From NCBI GenBank assembly GCA_029258245.1, contig JARHZK010000206.1, positions 1 through 35,279 of the forward strand: DNA of 35,279 nt. The letters run 5' to 3'. Origin of the DNA: Longicatena sp. (GTDB taxonomy: Bacteria; Bacillota_I; Bacilli_A; Erysipelotrichales; Erysipelotrichaceae). This document shows, piece by piece, positions 4,551 to 35,279 of this stretch. The translations under genes and the position numbers were made by a program. Under the pieces are notes generated by a model. That model was not told where the DNA came from, ran no database searches, and saw only the letters and a list, made by a program, of their open reading frames with translations. Numbering within the stretch: the first letter of the stretch is position 1; each line of letters opens with the position of its first letter.

Positions 4551-5366
4551 ATGAATAATTATTTTTCTATTGGAGAATTATCAAAATATCAAAATATATC
4601 CTCACAAACACTCATTTATTATGATAAAATCGACTTATTTAAACCAAGTTTTGTTGATGATAAAAATGGATATCGTTATTACAGTGCAGAACAATTAGAT
4701 TACTTAGATACTATCTTAATTATGAAAACTATTGGATTTTCTTTATCTGAAATAAAAAATTATATAAACAATAGTTCTATGAAGCATAGTTTACATTTAT
4801 TAAAAAATCAAGTTGACGTCATTACCCATAAAATAAATGAGTTATCTATGATCAAAAATCGATTAGAACATCGCATATCTGATGTTGAACAAGCACTATT
4901 GATTCAAGACTTAAATCCTTCTATATCTACAATCAAAGAACAATATGTGTTGTATCACGAAGTGAATAATCCCTATACCATGTGTGATATTAGCATTGCT
5001 ACTAAAAAATGTTATGCACAAGCACTAAAAAATAGCATCCCAATATTTTACCAATGTGGTGTATCTGTGCCATTAAAAAATATTCGCAATCATCATTCTA
5101 CAGAAGCTAATCTTGCCTTTGTTTCTACAGATTATATAGACGGAGTTAATAATATTATGAAATTACCTGAGGGTTTAACTGCGTCCATATATCACTTTGG
5201 TAATTATCAATCTATTGATACATCTTATCATAAATTAATCAATTTTTGTGATCAACATCATTTTGAAATCATTTCTGATTCCTATGAATTTTGTATCAAT
5301 GACTATATCACTTCAAAAGATGAAAATGAATTTATTACTAAAATAGTTTTTTATATTAAATCTTAA
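4551..5366 (+). CDS. MerR family transcriptional regulator, BmrR-like with C-terminal effector-binding domain
   Basis: 271 aa; N-terminal MerR HTH (FSIGELSKYQNISSQTLIYYDKIDLFKPSFVDDKNGYRYYSAEQLDYLDTILIMKTIGFSLSEIKNYI), coiled coil, GyrI-like C-terminus; RBS AAGGAG. Confidence 0.9.
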   Translation: MNNYFSIGELSKYQNISSQTLIYYDKIDLFKPSFVDDKNGYRYYSAEQLDYLDTILIMKTIGFSLSEIKNYINNSSMKHSLHLLKNQVDVITHKINELSMIKNRLEHRISDVEQALLIQDLNPSISTIKEQYVLYHEVNNPYTMCDISIATKKCYAQALKNSIPIFYQCGVSVPLKNIRNHHSTEANLAFVSTDYIDGVNNIMKLPEGLTASIYHFGNYQSIDTSYHKLINFCDQHHFEIISDSYEFCINDYITSKDENEFITKIVFYIKS

Positions 5367-5770
5367 TTATACCTAAAAGACGTAGTACGAACTTTACTTA
5401 TAAGGATCTATTATTACATATGAATCCTCAGCCATAAAGACCGAAAACTACAATACTTTCTCCAAACGCCCCTATAAGAGACTTTTTGTCTTTTATTCTA
5501 ACATCATTTCTTTCATAATATATTTTGCATTTTTCTTTATCTACTGTTTTAGTTAATAATAGATTTTTAATTTGCCATTCATATCATCTTTATAAGAAAT
5601 GGAATCCGTATCATTTAAATATAAATTACCGATTCCATATTCTTTAACTAATGAGTTGTAACTTTTGCCTTCTTTATGTTAATCCTATATTTCTATTCTC
5701 TTGTAATCTTGCCATAATAAAAAGTGAACCTTTTTCGTTAGTTATCCAACTTAAGGAGGTTCACTTCTAA
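5367..5770 (-). pseudogene. Candidate IS3-family element remnant (terminal repeat-like end plus degraded orfA fragment)
   Basis: Minus strand starts TGAACCTCCTTAAGTTGGATAACTAACG, resembling IS3-family ends, then an interrupted frame containing EGKSYNSLVKEYGIGN, like the HTH of IS3 OrfA proteins; stop codons/frameshifts throughout. Confidence 0.4.
5717..5766 (-). terminator. Terminator-like inverted repeat downstream of degV gene
   Basis: AAGTGAACCT (5722-5731) / AGGTTCACTT (5757-5766), followed on minus strand by TTTTTATT. Confidence 0.55.
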
Positions 5771-5787
5771 AAATATGCATTTATTAT

Positions 5788-6645
5788 TTATTCTTCTGTC
5801 TTTTTATATATTTGAATTGCTTGACATCCAATTCCCGTATGAATGCTTACAACACTTACCAATTGAATGAGTTGCGTTTGTACGGAAGGAAACGCCTCTT
5901 TAATCTTTTTCATAAAGTAGTTTGCTTCATCTTCATCATCCGCATGAGCAACTGTAATGACATAGCGATCATCAATTGGATGTTTTTCTTTAATACTTCT
6001 AATAACAACATCCATCGCCTTATGCATTGTACGTACTTTATCTTGAACATCAATTTTTCCATTGGTGCTTTTATTAATTTTTAAAATAGGTTTAATTTTT
6101 AGTAATCCACCCAATGCAGCTGCAAACGGTGTTAACCGTCCCCCACGTTTTAAATGTTGTAGATCACTTGGTAACAAATAAGTATCCGTACCTTCGATTA
6201 CTTTATTTAAGATATCTTTTATCTCTGTGATTGTTTTTCCTTCTTCGTAATATTGTTTTGCTTTTTTAATCAAATATTCTTGAACAACAGCAGTTACATA
6301 GCAATCTAAATATTCAAATTCTAATCCTACATTTCTTGCACATAACTCCATTGCATTAATCGTTCCACTTAATCCGCTACAAATTGGAACAGCAAAAATT
6401 CTTTCATATCCATCATTTTTTAATGATTCAAACAATTCTTCTATTTTACCTAAAGAAGGAAGAGATGTAGATAACATCACTCCATCTTGCATTAATTGAT
6501 ATATTTCATCAAGTCCTAATTCTTCTAAATCTTGATAATTCTTATTATCATAACTTACTTGTAATGGAATGCTATAAATTCCATCTTTTAATAGTTCTTC
6601 TACCATTTTGCCAGTGCCACTGTCTGTTACAAATGCTGTTTTCAT
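5788..6645 (-). CDS. DegV family (fatty-acid-binding) protein
   Basis: 285 aa; AFVTDSGTGK, TSLPSLGKIEELFE, ICSGLSGT, LQHLKRGGRLTPFAAALGGLLKIKPIL. Confidence 0.93.
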   Translation of the reverse strand: MKTAFVTDSGTGKMVEELLKDGIYSIPLQVSYDNKNYQDLEELGLDEIYQLMQDGVMLSTSLPSLGKIEELFESLKNDGYERIFAVPICSGLSGTINAMELCARNVGLEFEYLDCYVTAVVQEYLIKKAKQYYEEGKTITEIKDILNKVIEGTDTYLLPSDLQHLKRGGRLTPFAAALGGLLKIKPILKINKSTNGKIDVQDKVRTMHKAMDVVIRSIKEKHPIDDRYVITVAHADDEDEANYFMKKIKEAFPSVQTQLIQLVSVVSIHTGIGCQAIQIYKKTEE

Positions 6646-12648: not shown

Positions 12649-13743
12649 TCACATATTTTTTACTAAATTTTCTATAAAAGAAACAACGCGTTCTAGATTT
12701 TTACCATCAGAACAATCTATATATTTATTTTTTATTGTACATGCATTATTATGCTCATTTTGTATTAACTTTATTAATTCACTTTCATTTTTCGCAATAT
12801 TTCCATCCATAAATACCTCAAAGTCTACAAAACAACCACGATTCTTTAAATATTCATCTAAATCTGGAGTATAGGCATAAATTGGTTTATTTAACAAAGA
12901 AAAATCAAACATTACAGAAGAAAAATCAGATATTAAGCAATCTGCTATACTAAACAGTTCATGTAATACTTCATTGGTCATATTTATTATTTTAGATGAA
13001 TTCTTATATTCTTCATGCGCTAATAAAGGATGACATTTATAAATAATCCTATATTCATCACCTAACCCTACTAGTATTTTATCTAAATCAATGTTTACTT
13101 TACTTACTCCTTGATAGATATCTCCTCTAAAAGTTGGAGCATATAAAATAATTTTCTTATCTTTCAATTCTGGATACTTTTCAAGCAACTTTGCTTTTGC
13201 CTGATTCCTATAATTCATATCAGCAACACAATCAAGTCTTGGCATTCCAATAGGAACAACTTGATTTTCTTCTACATTAAATGCTTCGCTATATGGCTTT
13301 TTCCAATATTCTCCATTTGAAATAACATAATCATAATTAGCAATTGGATAAGATCTTTCAATCACATTTCCAAATTTTTTTATTGCTCCAGTTGCATGCC
13401 AAATTTGAATCACAATGACTCCTTTTCTTTTAAATTTGCTAATTACAAAGTTATTATCATTAATAATAACTACTTTTGAAGTATTAATTAAAAACAACTG
13501 TTTAATTGTATTTAAAAAATAACAAAAATTTGTCCATAAATTGTTTTTATTAAATTTTGTTAAAACACATGATATCTTATAATTCTTTTGCTTCAATTCA
13601 TCATAAATCATTTTCATATCTGATTCTAAAACATTACTCTCTAAGGATACAAATGTAATTTTATGTTGATTAATTGGAATCAATTTTACAAAAAAATTAA
13701 AAAAAGACAGAACTATATTTAATATAAAAATTTTTAATCCCAT
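12649..13743 (-). CDS. CDP-glycerol glycerophosphotransferase family protein
   Basis: TagB/TagF-like: IVIQIWHATGAIKKFGN, LYAPTFRGD, ADCLISDFSSVMFDFSLLNKPIYAYTPDLDEYLKNRGCF. ATG at 13743 preferred over ORF start 13770, since it sits next to the upstream stop. Confidence 0.88.
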   Translation of the reverse strand: MGLKIFILNIVLSFFNFFVKLIPINQHKITFVSLESNVLESDMKMIYDELKQKNYKISCVLTKFNKNNLWTNFCYFLNTIKQLFLINTSKVVIINDNNFVISKFKRKGVIVIQIWHATGAIKKFGNVIERSYPIANYDYVISNGEYWKKPYSEAFNVEENQVVPIGMPRLDCVADMNYRNQAKAKLLEKYPELKDKKIILYAPTFRGDIYQGVSKVNIDLDKILVGLGDEYRIIYKCHPLLAHEEYKNSSKIINMTNEVLHELFSIADCLISDFSSVMFDFSLLNKPIYAYTPDLDEYLKNRGCFVDFEVFMDGNIAKNESELIKLIQNEHNNACTIKNKYIDCSDGKNLERVVSFIENLVKNM

Positions 13744-13744
13744 A

Positions 13745-14941
13745 TCATTTACCACCAAAAACAATATCAATTACGCGTTTTGATGCATTTCCATCCTCAT
13801 GATTATTAAAATAAGCATTAAACTCTTTAAGCTTTTCGTAATTATATACATGATTTGAAATGTCATCTAACATCATTTCTTCTTTTTCATAAATAGTTCC
13901 AGGTAAATCTTTATAAATATCAATATAGAAACCTCTCAATTCCTCTTTATAGCTTTCAATATCATACATATAAAAATATATTGGACGATTTAAAATCGCA
14001 TAATCGAAGAAAACACTTGAATAATCTGTAACCAAAGCATCCGCTATAATATATAATGAGCTAATATCAACACTTGCATCAATTGAATATAAAAAGCCTT
14101 CTAAAGAAGTATCTTTTTTATATTCATTAATGATCAAATAATGTGGCTTAAATAATAGAACATATTCATCGCCAAGTATATTTTTCCATTTATGGAAATC
14201 AGCTTCTAATTTAAAAGTATATCCTTTCGTAACATACTGATTATCCCTCCAAGTAGGTGCATATAATAAAACCTTTTTACCCAAAGGAATATTTAACATC
14301 TGTTTAATAGCTATTGCATCTTCCGTACTAGCATTACTTAAAATATCATTTCTAGGATACCCTGTTTCAATTAAACGATTTTGATCAATTGCAAATGCAG
14401 ATTGAAAGATCTTAGTACAAAATGTGTTAGGGGAAATCATATAGTTATATCTAGCCACATCAATATCATATGTTTTATACATCTCATCTGCGCTCATTTG
14501 ACTTCTATAAAAAGTTGCATCCTTATCAACTTGAATATCATGTCCTAATCGTTTTAATGGTGTTCCATGCCATGTTTGTAAATATATTTGATTTTTCTTT
14601 TTCGAAATATACGTTGGCATCTTGCAATTAAAAATCCAATACTTAGCCTTTGACATATAATAAAAATATGGAATACTATAATACTCGATTATTTTTGCAC
14701 CTTTAATTTTTAAATTTACTTTTTTATGATGCTTTATAGCCCATATAAATTTATAATCTTTAAATCTTTCATCTTTTTTCATTTCTTCATAAATAGCCTT
14801 TGGATTATCTGAATATCCTCTACCATGAAATGAAATAAATATTACTGTTTTATGATCTATTGGTACGAGTTTATAAGTTAAATGATATAAAATATAAATA
14901 ATTTTGCTTATTATTTTCTTTAGAATTTTCAATATTTTCAT
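13745..14941 (-). CDS. CDP-glycerol glycerophosphotransferase family protein
   Basis: 398 aa; IYLQTWHGTPLKRLGHD, LLYAPTWRDNQY, ADALVTDYSSVFFDYAILNRPIYFYMYD. Confidence 0.9.
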   Translation of the reverse strand: MKILKILKKIISKIIYILYHLTYKLVPIDHKTVIFISFHGRGYSDNPKAIYEEMKKDERFKDYKFIWAIKHHKKVNLKIKGAKIIEYYSIPYFYYMSKAKYWIFNCKMPTYISKKKNQIYLQTWHGTPLKRLGHDIQVDKDATFYRSQMSADEMYKTYDIDVARYNYMISPNTFCTKIFQSAFAIDQNRLIETGYPRNDILSNASTEDAIAIKQMLNIPLGKKVLLYAPTWRDNQYVTKGYTFKLEADFHKWKNILGDEYVLLFKPHYLIINEYKKDTSLEGFLYSIDASVDISSLYIIADALVTDYSSVFFDYAILNRPIYFYMYDIESYKEELRGFYIDIYKDLPGTIYEKEEMMLDDISNHVYNYEKLKEFNAYFNNHEDGNASKRVIDIVFGGK

Positions 14942-14955
14942 CTTACTTACCTAAT

Positions 14956-14986
14956 AAAATAGAATCAAATAACTTGATTCTATTTT
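14956..14986. terminator. Bidirectional-looking terminator between two glycerophosphotransferase genes
   Basis: Perfect 13-bp stem AAAATAGAATCAA / TTGATTCTATTTT, 5-nt loop. Confidence 0.75.
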
Positions 14987-15020
14987 CCTTTCTTTTGATT
15001 TGTTAAAAGTTAAATCTTAT

Positions 15021-18000
15021 TTAAATAATTTCATCTTCCTTTAAAAAAGATATTAACCTATCTGTATTTTTACCATCATGATACTGTACTAAATTTGTAT
15101 AATTTTTGATAAATTTTGAATTTTGTTTTTCTAAATAATTTCTATTAAATACATTTTTCAAATCCTCTTTAGAATAACAAATATCTCCATATACATTATT
15201 TTCATTTAGCATAAGCTTTGTTGAAGGACCATAATTTTCTAAACATTGATTTTTTTCTTCCCAATAGAATATAACATTCGATCCTCGATAAAATGCATCA
15301 TATGCAATCGAAGAATAATCTGTAATCAATACTTTTGTTTCTTTTAAAATATCATCGTATTTAGACGTAACATCTAAATATTTTTTTAATTTGAAATCAG
15401 CATCTTTTACAGCATCAAAAAATAAAGGATGTGGTAAAATTGTTATTTTTTCATGATATTCCTCTGGGATTGCATCAAAAATACGACAAATCATTTTATA
15501 GTATGCAGTACTTGAAAAATCGTACCTAGCTTCATTATATTCCCATGGTCTCCATGTAGGCATAATCACTATTCGATCTGCTCCGTCGTTTAAAATGTTT
15601 CGATCATACTTTGGTAAACCACTAATATAAATATATTCAGGAAGATACTTTCCTAATTCAATAAAATGTCTAGCTTCTTCCTCTGATGAAGTAACAACTC
15701 TAAACTTACCATCTGTCTTTTTAGGCTTAAAGAATTTTCTTGACTCTGAATCAAGTGAAATCATATACATAACTCCATGCTGTAAAAAAACATAATCTAA
15801 TTTCTTGGATGCTAATTTTTTTAAAGCGTAATGATTAATAATTCGTAAATCAATAGCATGTACAAGTGCCTCAGAACCAATGAATGTATTTGATTTAAAG
15901 AAATATAAATAATGTTTAAAAGAATATTTATATATTAAATTATGGCGATATTTTTCTTTTATATTTGATAAATATGGATAAGATTTATCTATGATAAAAT
16001 ATGCCGATTGATACCCTTGATCCATTAATTTTTCATATAATACAGATGCACTTTCTTCATATCTACTAGATTCTTTTTCAAATAATAAAATAATTTTTTT
16101 CGTAACCATGATTTTTGACAAATAATATGCAAAAAACAATTTTACTCTTTCTTTAAATAAATCTGTAACATTTTGTTTCCGTACTGTTAAATAAATCGTA
16201 TTTTTCGCTGTTTCTCTAATATAAGCAACGGTTTCATATTGTGGTATACTATATAATTTTTTATGTTTATTTTTCCCTTTTTTTCTATGAAAAATATTAT
16301 ATCGAATTCCTTTTTCTAATCCATATCCACTTTCATCTGCATAATAAATATATAACTTATTCTGGATTCCTAAATTTAAAATAGATAATTCATCCATACA
16401 GAAAGAATATCGAATGATATCGTAACCAAAAACACTGCAAATTTTCTTTACTTTGCTTGTAACCACTGTATCTCCAACTTTTATCTTTAAATCATCATAT
16501 GCAAACGGGAAAATTTTTTTAGCGACAGCAATTGCAGAATATGTAATTCCTGATCTACGATTTCTTTGTCGGGCACAAATATTTCCTATTTTTAAACTAC
16601 GATTATAACAAGTTTTCTTATTTTCTTCATCATATAAACCCATCACATTATCACTTTCATGTGAAATAACTTCATCATAATACATGTTTAAATAAGTCTT
16701 CATATTTGAGAATTTTGATCCATAATTTTGAAGTCCCACTACAACATTATTTTGGAGATGTGCAATTAACTTAGCTTTGGATTGTGCTCCCATTCGATAC
16801 ATATATTCAGGTTTTCCTGAATAATAAATAAATTTTTTAGGATTAATATGATAAAATAACCGATTCCATTCCTTTGTATAAGCATTTACTAACGATTTAT
16901 CAAAAAGTTTAGAACATAAATTTATCCTCATACTAAGAATTGATTTTATTTTATCTAAAATTGTTAATTCATATTTATTAACTAAAGCTAAATAATTTAT
17001 ATTATGAGGTATTGTTTTTAAAAATTCTGTAACAGTTTTTGTTATCTTACCACGAAAAACCAGTATAACATTTTCTTTTTGATATTTTTGTGAATAATCG
17101 ATTAAATAATCATATAACAAAGCATTCAATTGTTTATTTTTTAAATTTCCTGCATAAACTAAAACATTTTCTTTTCCATTATTTTCTCCATCTTCTATTA
17201 CTAAATCAGATTTCCCGTTTATCATTAAATCTAATATTTTTTCAGGATTATTAACATTTTGATACATACAATATGTATGTAAAAATGATTCCATATCATA
17301 ATTGATTGGTGAATTAATTTCCTTAATCAACCCATCTACATCATTATGGATTGGAAATGGTAAATTAGTAATAGGAAAATAGGTACCTCTTTCTGCCATA
17401 TATTCATCCAAGTCATATGTAAACAAAGTAATTTTTCTCTTCGTTATTGCAAAATCAAAAAATACACTTGAATAATCCGTTACCAATTGATCACAAATTG
17501 ATAAAAAATCATATGTCTCATATTCACTTGGAAACGGACGTATGTGTTTATATTTACTATAATCCATTACGTTTCCAACTAAAAAATGTAAATTCACATA
17601 AAATATTTGATTATTATTTAGTTTTTTATCAATTTTCGAAAAATAATTATGCAAAATTTCCTTTTGTTCTGCAGCATCCGCGGTTCTATTTCCACCGCGC
17701 CAAGTTGGCATATATGCGATTAATTGAAAATTATCAAGATGTAACTTACTTCTTAATTTAGCAGATTCTTCTCTTCTTAAAAATGCACTATTTCTAGGAT
17801 AATCGCATAATAAAACTTTGTTACTAAAAAGATTTGCTAACATGTAGTCATGCATAAATACATCTCTTGTAAACTTATTTGGAAATAGAGCGTAATCACT
17901 CATCAAATAATTCTTTTGAATATTTGCTAATGAAGTTGCATTTTCTATATCACTTTTCCCCAATGTTTTCAATGGTGTTCCATGCCATGTATTTAAATAA

Positions 18001-18356
18001 ACTTGTTCTTTTCTTTTATTAAAATACGGTGGAAATGAATTATCAGTAGCCAAATATTTAGCAGTTGCTAAATATTTCATATATTCTTTTGAACCTCTTA
18101 TAACGAGTCTAGTATTATATCCATAATAAGAGAATCTTTCTTTTGCTTGATTATAAGTATCTTCTGTAACGACAAAAATGGCAACCATATTTGCCCACTT
18201 GGGATTCAAATTAATTTCCCTTAATAAAGCAAACATATTACCATTTAAATTTTTTCCTTGTCCTGCTTCCAATAATATAAAATTTTCTTGAATATCTTCT
18301 CTTAAAAATTTCATATAATCTAAAGACTTACTTTTTAATTTATTTACTATTTTCAT
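15021..18356 (-). CDS. Large multidomain CDP-glycerol glycerophosphotransferase family protein (two transferase-like domains)
   Basis: 1111 aa; N-terminal YLNTWHGTPLKTLGKS...AYMPTWRGG...LVTDYSSVFFDFAI; C-terminal DYVFLQHGVMYM...IVIMPTWRPWEYN...VLITDYSSIAYDAFYRGSNVIFYW; distinct middle region. Confidence 0.88.
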   Translation of the reverse strand: MKIVNKLKSKSLDYMKFLREDIQENFILLEAGQGKNLNGNMFALLREINLNPKWANMVAIFVVTEDTYNQAKERFSYYGYNTRLVIRGSKEYMKYLATAKYLATDNSFPPYFNKRKEQVYLNTWHGTPLKTLGKSDIENATSLANIQKNYLMSDYALFPNKFTRDVFMHDYMLANLFSNKVLLCDYPRNSAFLRREESAKLRSKLHLDNFQLIAYMPTWRGGNRTADAAEQKEILHNYFSKIDKKLNNNQIFYVNLHFLVGNVMDYSKYKHIRPFPSEYETYDFLSICDQLVTDYSSVFFDFAITKRKITLFTYDLDEYMAERGTYFPITNLPFPIHNDVDGLIKEINSPINYDMESFLHTYCMYQNVNNPEKILDLMINGKSDLVIEDGENNGKENVLVYAGNLKNKQLNALLYDYLIDYSQKYQKENVILVFRGKITKTVTEFLKTIPHNINYLALVNKYELTILDKIKSILSMRINLCSKLFDKSLVNAYTKEWNRLFYHINPKKFIYYSGKPEYMYRMGAQSKAKLIAHLQNNVVVGLQNYGSKFSNMKTYLNMYYDEVISHESDNVMGLYDEENKKTCYNRSLKIGNICARQRNRRSGITYSAIAVAKKIFPFAYDDLKIKVGDTVVTSKVKKICSVFGYDIIRYSFCMDELSILNLGIQNKLYIYYADESGYGLEKGIRYNIFHRKKGKNKHKKLYSIPQYETVAYIRETAKNTIYLTVRKQNVTDLFKERVKLFFAYYLSKIMVTKKIILLFEKESSRYEESASVLYEKLMDQGYQSAYFIIDKSYPYLSNIKEKYRHNLIYKYSFKHYLYFFKSNTFIGSEALVHAIDLRIINHYALKKLASKKLDYVFLQHGVMYMISLDSESRKFFKPKKTDGKFRVVTSSEEEARHFIELGKYLPEYIYISGLPKYDRNILNDGADRIVIMPTWRPWEYNEARYDFSSTAYYKMICRIFDAIPEEYHEKITILPHPLFFDAVKDADFKLKKYLDVTSKYDDILKETKVLITDYSSIAYDAFYRGSNVIFYWEEKNQCLENYGPSTKLMLNENNVYGDICYSKEDLKNVFNRNYLEKQNSKFIKNYTNLVQYHDGKNTDRLISFLKEDEII

Positions 18357-33283: not shown

Positions 33284-34474
33284 TTATTCAATCTCAATAA
33301 TTTCCTGTTCCAATTTCATATTCTTTTTTAACATATATTGTATCACTGGTAACTGATACTGTTGATTCAATAGATTTAATTTATGAATATCTTGCTTTGT
33401 TAATGGTTTTGTATATTCTTGATATTCTTTTAACGTTTCTACATCCATTTTATAGGTATGGAAAGGCATCTTTGTTTTGTTAATTAAATCAAAATAAATA
33501 TAAAATCCGCCAGCATCAATATCTCCAAAATGATCATACACTACCGAATCCTTTAAAAAATCATATAATTGTAATAAGAACTTACGCTCTTGACTATTAT
33601 GGTATCCCCCTAAATATATTACTAAAGTATCTTTGGGTTCTACACTATAATAAGAAGTTAAGTTCTCAACCGTCATGACTCTTTTATTACGAACATTTAA
33701 AATTTCTAAAGATTCTAAATGTTTTTTTGTAAACACAAACTCATAATCCACTTTTTTTAAATCAATTCGTTGATCATGAATTTTAAGCTCCATATCCCCT
33801 TTTATATGAATACAAGTTGGATTTTTTAAAATATTAAAGCACTCTAACATTTGATTTTCATTTTCAATAAAAGGATTATAGAAATCTTGTACAACGTGAA
33901 GGATTCGTGTTTTATATACATCAAATTTTTTCGTATCGTGTAGTACAGATTGAGAAAACTTTCGTAACATAACCTCATTTTTTTGATTATATAAATGCTC
34001 CAAAATATCAACAATATCTTTCACTTCATGAAAATCTAATGTATTTAGATACTTGTTAACAGATTCATAATTTTTTACTTTATCAATTAAATAAGCAAGA
34101 AAATCATTCACAAAATCAATACTATTTATGCTTTGTACTTCATTGATAAATTGTCTTCTACTGTCTTTTTCAGGTATTCGATGTAATTCTTTATATATTT
34201 TTTCTAAACTATCTTCCTCTATATTTAATATAATCTTTCGTTTTCGGTATTCAAATGGATTGCCTGCTTTAATTATTTTTTCATGTAATAAATCTTCTAC
34301 TACTTTTTCTATTTCGTTTGTTTCATTAAAACATTCGCTATTTCCATATTCTTTGTAATTTTTATTAAGATTTAAAGTACATGTTGGACTTTTTTTTGAC
34401 TTTCCTTTATAAAACTTTGTATCCTCATATGTTTTAATGAACCAAGATAAAATATCTTCTCTATAGTTCTTCAT
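33284..34474 (-). CDS. jetD: Wadjet-like anti-plasmid protein JetD (DUF2220, TOPRIM-type nuclease)
   Basis: 396 aa; C-terminal VENLTSYYSVEPKDTLVIYLGGYHNSQERKFLLQLYDFLKDSVVYDHFGDIDAGGFYIYFDL resembles the DUF2220/TOPRIM core; overlaps an upstream SMC-like gene. Confidence 0.82.
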   Translation of the reverse strand: MKNYREDILSWFIKTYEDTKFYKGKSKKSPTCTLNLNKNYKEYGNSECFNETNEIEKVVEDLLHEKIIKAGNPFEYRKRKIILNIEEDSLEKIYKELHRIPEKDSRRQFINEVQSINSIDFVNDFLAYLIDKVKNYESVNKYLNTLDFHEVKDIVDILEHLYNQKNEVMLRKFSQSVLHDTKKFDVYKTRILHVVQDFYNPFIENENQMLECFNILKNPTCIHIKGDMELKIHDQRIDLKKVDYEFVFTKKHLESLEILNVRNKRVMTVENLTSYYSVEPKDTLVIYLGGYHNSQERKFLLQLYDFLKDSVVYDHFGDIDAGGFYIYFDLINKTKMPFHTYKMDVETLKEYQEYTKPLTKQDIHKLNLLNQQYQLPVIQYMLKKNMKLEQEIIEIE

Positions 34475-35279
34475 CCTTTACAACCTCCACAAAGGTTTGG
34501 TTATCTTGTTTAATTACTAATAGTCTTGTATTTACATATGGAATAATCGTACTAGCTCGTGATGGTGGTACTGCAATAAAGGTTTGGATATCTCTTTCAT
34601 TATAAAATTTAATCATTTCTTGAATTCGATACTCATCCATATTATTAAATGCTTCATCAAAAATAACGACGCATCCAAAATCTTCATCTTCGTTTCTATT
34701 TTGAATAATTTGTTCAAAACTTGCTGCCATAATAACATAGAATGGTGTCTGTGTTTCTCCACCTGATTTCTCTCTATTTACTTTTGAAAAATAAGCATAT
34801 GATCCATCTTCATATTTAATCTTTATATCATAATCTAAATAGTTACGATAATCTGTATATTCCATTAACGTTTGTTCGGTTTCTTTATCATTTTCAACAG
34901 ATGCTAATTTAGCAAATAATTCATCCATGATTCTTCTTTGACTATCATCTAATGTCTCTGAGAATAAATTATTCGCCATATATTCTTTTCCTGTTTCAAT
35001 AATGTCATAATAATCTTTAAAATTCTCTTTCTTTGTTGCAGTTACACAAAACTCATAAGTTTCCCCATTAAAGTCACGTTTTGCTAAACCTTTATTTAAT
35101 GTTTTAATATTTTCTTTCGCATCATGTATTTTTTCAGATAAACCGGATATAAAAGACTCTTTAAAGGATTCTTCACATTTTAATTTTGCCTGTCTTGTCA
35201 TTTCTGTTTTATCTACAATATCCATATCACGTAATTGATAATAACGTTTTTCATAATCATGCATGGCATCTATAGATAG
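34461..35279 (-). CDS. jetC: Wadjet-like JetC (SMC/MksB-like ATPase), C-terminal part only; open at window edge
   Basis: ABC signature KSGGETQTPFYVIMAASFEQI and Walker B CVVIFDEAFNNMDEYRIQEMI; frame stays open from the M at 35264 to the edge (LSIDAMHDYEKR...). Overlaps jetD by 14 bp. Confidence 0.82.
   Translation of the reverse strand, partial: LSIDAMHDYEKRYYQLRDMDIVDKTEMTRQAKLKCEESFKESFISGLSEKIHDAKENIKTLNKGLAKRDFNGETYEFCVTATKKENFKDYYDIIETGKEYMANNLFSETLDDSQRRIMDELFAKLASVENDKETEQTLMEYTDYRNYLDYDIKIKYEDGSYAYFSKVNREKSGGETQTPFYVIMAASFEQIIQNRNEDEDFGCVVIFDEAFNNMDEYRIQEMIKFYNERDIQTFIAVPPSRASTIIPYVNTRLLVIKQDNQTFVEVVKDEEL

Follow-up and report, generated by a model that had tools for sequence, protein, structure and literature searches.

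Does the pair of frames at one end of a bacterial contig belong to a complete Wadjet system, and if so, to which type? The stretch analysed here (the window; 35,279 nucleotides, the whole of contig C243) stops inside an open reading frame, and a sequence-only reading had taken this frame and the next for jetC and jetD of a Wadjet-like locus cut by the right window edge, with jetA and jetB just past position 35279 and the subtype still to be assigned. We conclude, with a probability of about 95%, that the window holds one part of a type I Wadjet operon that is complete (jetA-jetB-jetC-jetD), lies between the chromosomal genes ctpA and uvrB of an AT-rich, Bacillota-like bacterium, and is split within jetC by an assembly break. 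Wadjet type I (JetABCD), a four-gene system by which bacteria recognise small circular plasmids and cut them, is also named MksBEFG or EptABCD.

Results

The features of the operon on both contigs are listed in Table 1. The jetD product is covered by the PADLOC JetD1 model over the whole protein (residues 1-394, E 3.3e-101), and a profile search of its frame for DUF2220, as had been proposed, matched Pfam JetD_C (E 1.6e-21), the family formerly called DUF2220. The C-terminal piece of jetC matches PADLOC JetC1 at model positions 827-1089 of 1097 (E 1e-96) as well as Pfam SbcC_Walker_B (E 3.2e-23), and a motif scan recovered both the SGGE signature and the Walker B motif that had been read in this SMC-type frame. 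ORF coordinates, Pfam and PADLOC also agree with the reported overlap of a DUF2220/TOPRIM-like frame with the C-terminus of an SMC-type ATPase, and the cut at the right edge is indeed the end of an assembly contig, where jetC is truncated. Since the rest of the window consists of housekeeping genes (uvrA, glycogen metabolism, teichoic acid genes and others), it is not a defence island. The teichoic acid cluster comprises three consecutive genes of the CDP-glycerol glycerophosphotransferase family (12649-18356), one of which encodes 1111 residues; a cytidylyltransferase and an ABC exporter come next.

Table 1. Positions of the Wadjet genes, their motifs and the uvrB flank on the two contigs.
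Feature	Contig	Position	Strand	Basis or remark
jetA	C201	7826-9193	+	PADLOC JetA1 E 3.2e-84; Pfam JetA E 3.3e-78
jetB	C201	9194-9832	+	PADLOC JetB1 E 1.7e-63; Pfam DUF4194 E 9.1e-24
jetC, N-terminal piece	C201	9801-12188	+	PADLOC JetC1 model positions 1-811, E about 1.4e-200 to 1.5e-200; Pfam AAA_29 E 2.7e-18
jetC, C-terminal 272 residues, SMC-like ATPase, open at contig end	C243	34461..35279	-	PADLOC and Pfam
JetC signature motif SGGE	C243	34755..34766	-	motif scan
JetC Walker B VVIFDE	C243	34653..34670	-	motif scan
jetC end/jetD start overlap, 14 bp	C243	34461..34474	-	ORF coordinates
jetD, TOPRIM nuclease subunit	C243	33284..34474	-	396 aa, complete
JetD E270, first TOPRIM acidic residue (TVEN)	C243	33665..33667	-	invariant in alignment A1
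JetD D318-x-D320 (GDIDAGG), TOPRIM metal-binding motif	C243	33515..33523	-	invariant in alignment A1
JetD KLEQE (E389, E391), proposed catalytic glutamates	C243	33302..33316	-	invariant in alignment A1
uvrB, chromosomal flank downstream of jetD, outside the system	C243	31024..33006	-	neighbour of ctpA in relatives

Both jetA and jetB were found, not directly past position 35279, where the window contig stops, but on contig C201 of the same assembly. Searching this assembly with the JetC1 model gave one other strong piece, on C201, a contig of 12,192 bases off whose end jetC runs. This piece encodes the first 799 residues, including the N-terminal Walker A that had been expected (GENGTGKS, at residue 32), and is preceded in the same order and direction by jetB and jetA (locus L026, 7826-12191, + strand), the two upstream genes whose absence would have spoken against a Wadjet locus. 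JetB is of the anticipated DUF4194 kind; JetA, for which a DUF3375/DUF6063-type protein had been predicted, is instead of the DUF5716/PF18982 kind. With overlaps of 38 bp between jetB and jetC and 14 bp between jetC and jetD, the genes form a tight operon. The gene preceding jetA is an S41 peptidase of the ctpA type. Upstream of ctpA and jetA, genes for two sortases and for surface or pilin-like proteins anchored to the cell wall are clustered on C201 (1-4784), and after them comes a BTAD-type regulator (4818-6008, - strand).

The PADLOC type I models (JetA1, JetB1, JetC1 and JetD1) are the best match for all four proteins, while the best type II matches are weak (JetC2, E 2.2e-5; JetB2, E 2.8e-4). 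Over the two contig ends the four genes are adjacent and co-directional, with jetC directly before jetD as had been claimed, and full systems in the relatives examined have the same gene order. JetC retains all three ATPase motifs (Walker A, signature and Walker B) intact. This settles the subtype as type I. The short lysine-rich N-terminus of JetD (FYKGKSKKSPT), which had been the reason for leaving the subtype to assignment, turned out to be ordinary: the nearest homologs are basic at the same place (YYKGKSLKPQK, AFKGTSTRKRK), and the stretch therefore marks no new subtype.

We looked for an exact overlap between the ends of C201 and C243 and found none. When the pieces are aligned to the JetC of relatives with a spacer of 11 unknown residues, the junction closes without a gap in the nearest ones, and a JetC rebuilt with these approximately 11 uncovered codons has 1082 residues, compared to 1080-1094 in the five nearest relatives. 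Furthermore, among the 55 relatives that hold both ctpA and uvrB, counted by hand from coordinates, these genes are immediately adjacent and co-directional in 49 (gap at most about 225 bp); in the other six they are separated by 1.8, 3.8 or 5.8 kb (three genomes), lie on different contigs (two) or are rearranged (one). Because the flanking genes, ctpA on C201 and uvrB in the window, are neighbours in these relatives, the two contigs belong together, and jetABCD lies between ctpA and uvrB here.

A fragmented assembly with an estimated contamination of 2.9% does raise the thought that the halves stem from different organisms or strains that were binned together, so that no single complete system would exist. 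We consider this highly improbable: the assembly has a single N-terminal piece of jetC and a single C-terminal one, which complement each other, their flanks adjoin in the relatives counted above, the same relatives are nearest to both halves, and both contigs have a GC content of 28-29%. Somewhat less far-fetched, and still very unlikely, is that the operon is present but dead, with jetC interrupted, for instance by an insertion element, at the point where the two contigs break off. Both contigs stop inside jetC without overlapping, insertion elements are a frequent cause of assembly breaks, one relative (locus L037) has its jetC in two ORFs, and the stretch of about 11 codons, spanned by no read or single contig, could hold an insertion or a frameshift. 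However, both ends are still open jetC coding sequence free of foreign sequence, the missing stretch fits the relatives at its estimated length with nothing extra, and with 259 contigs in the assembly, breaks are common. A complete operon split by the assembly is thus the reading we retain.

The acidic residues of the TOPRIM active site, whose loss had been named as grounds for doubting a JetD, are kept: E270, D318, D320, E389 and E391 are all invariant across the 13 JetD proteins aligned (A1). Going by motif and spacing, E270 would correspond to E236 of the nuclease MksG, D318 to D279, and E389/E391 to E349/E351. In MksG, mutation of E236 and D279 drastically impaired nuclease activity, and E349/E351 are the glutamates for which a nucleophile role in JetD has been proposed; Y258, proposed to be catalytic in MksG, is reported not to be conserved in JetD (PMC10123090). 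Searches of PDB sequences with JetD, the A1 profile, JetB and the N-terminal part of JetC returned no relevant match, and the fold of JetD was therefore compared instead. Its AlphaFold2 model (mean pLDDT 91) has as its best predicted counterpart in the PDB 8b7f, the Wadjet nuclease MksG of C. glutamicum (E 2.6e-9), followed by topoisomerase VI-A and Spo11. Whole-chain TM-scores against solved structures are low (0.31-0.38), which a flexible hinge between two domains might well produce; the Foldseek probability is high.

JetABC is MukBEF-like and the C-terminal part of JetC has a weak match to MukB in the PDB sequence search, which would also suit a housekeeping condensin of the MukBEF/MksBEF type, serving chromosome organisation and not defence. 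Yet the operon includes a full-length JetD nuclease whose active site is complete, and its distribution is patchy and not universal, which leaves this the least probable of the alternatives.

JetD homologs occur in 14 of 246 other sampled genomes of the same family, the best being 35% identical over the full length, while the nearest ones, at 42-45% identity, are found in one genus in another family of the order. This patchiness within the family, together with nearest homologs outside it, suggests horizontal gain of the operon. Four plasmid records hold distant JetD homologs (23-30% identity), and a scan of genome contigs with JetD gave one distant locus only. Identity to the nearest relatives is 63-65% for JetA, 59-66% for JetB and 77-80% for the C-terminal part of JetC. 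We considered a swap of JetD given its lower values, and rejected it because JetD is the most divergent component among the relatives as well: between two subgroups of them it is 47-48% identical, against 58-60% for JetA. In one relative (G038, locus L043) we observed a JetD C-terminal remnant of 119 residues. It reads GGID instead of GDID, no further jet gene was detected, and the remnant looks like a decayed copy. The split jetC of relative G076 (locus L037), in ORFs of 476 and 567 residues, is possibly a pseudogene or an assembly error.

The simplest view is that the operon was inserted between ctpA and uvrB. In Wadjet-bearing relatives among the 55 (e.g. G018, G073, G075 and G080) these two genes adjoin, so their Wadjet is sited elsewhere. 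Three other relatives carry different genes in the interval: an ABC transporter cluster of 5.8 kb (G061, locus L044), an ABC transporter, its companion TetR-like regulator and one more ORF over 3.8 kb (G001, L045), and an ATPase_2/DUF234 gene over 1.8 kb (G022, L046). It is doubtful that accessory genes have repeatedly inserted at this interval across the order, the Wadjet operon, acquired horizontally and perhaps co-transcribed with its housekeeping neighbours, being the instance here. The gap as a defence hotspot was not retained, the genes seen in the insertions of these three relatives not being clearly defence genes, and a literature search on a ctpA-uvrB defence site found nothing.

Discussion

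This operon adds one further type I Wadjet in a lineage where few genomes have one; the kind of system is already well known, and our understanding of Wadjet is unchanged by it. In type I systems, JetABC forms an SMC motor dimer for which DNA extrusion has been proposed, and total extrusion of a small circle brings the motors together, upon which JetD is activated and cuts (PMC10586767). With the genes, gene order, subtype, motifs and fold found here, the present proteins would by analogy act alike: JetA as the kleisin, JetB as the KITE subunit and JetC as the SMC ATPase would assemble into a dimer of dimers and extrude loops of DNA. Once a small circular DNA has been reeled in completely, the two motors would meet, and this meeting would switch on the JetD dimer, leading to cutting of the DNA. 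Loop extrusion, plasmid cutting and a size limit may likewise be properties of this operon; no finding here favours a different mechanism, and activity in this organism is presumed on the same analogy.

In relation to known systems, the ctpA-uvrB site is one at which no Wadjet was seen in the relatives checked. The SMC, kleisin and KITE architecture is common to this operon and the MukBEF condensin, but MukBEF is without a nuclease subunit, whereas jetABCD here comes with JetD. C. glutamicum MksG (8b7f), the best fold match to this JetD, shares counterparts of E236, D279, E349 and E351 by motif and spacing at an overall identity of 12%. From Wadjet type I there is no substantive difference beyond a diverged sequence (full-length JetD identity to the homologs found at most 45%), the assembly break in jetC and the site: the A-B-C-D gene order, the matching type I models, the SMC ATPase motifs and the TOPRIM active site of JetD are all the same here.
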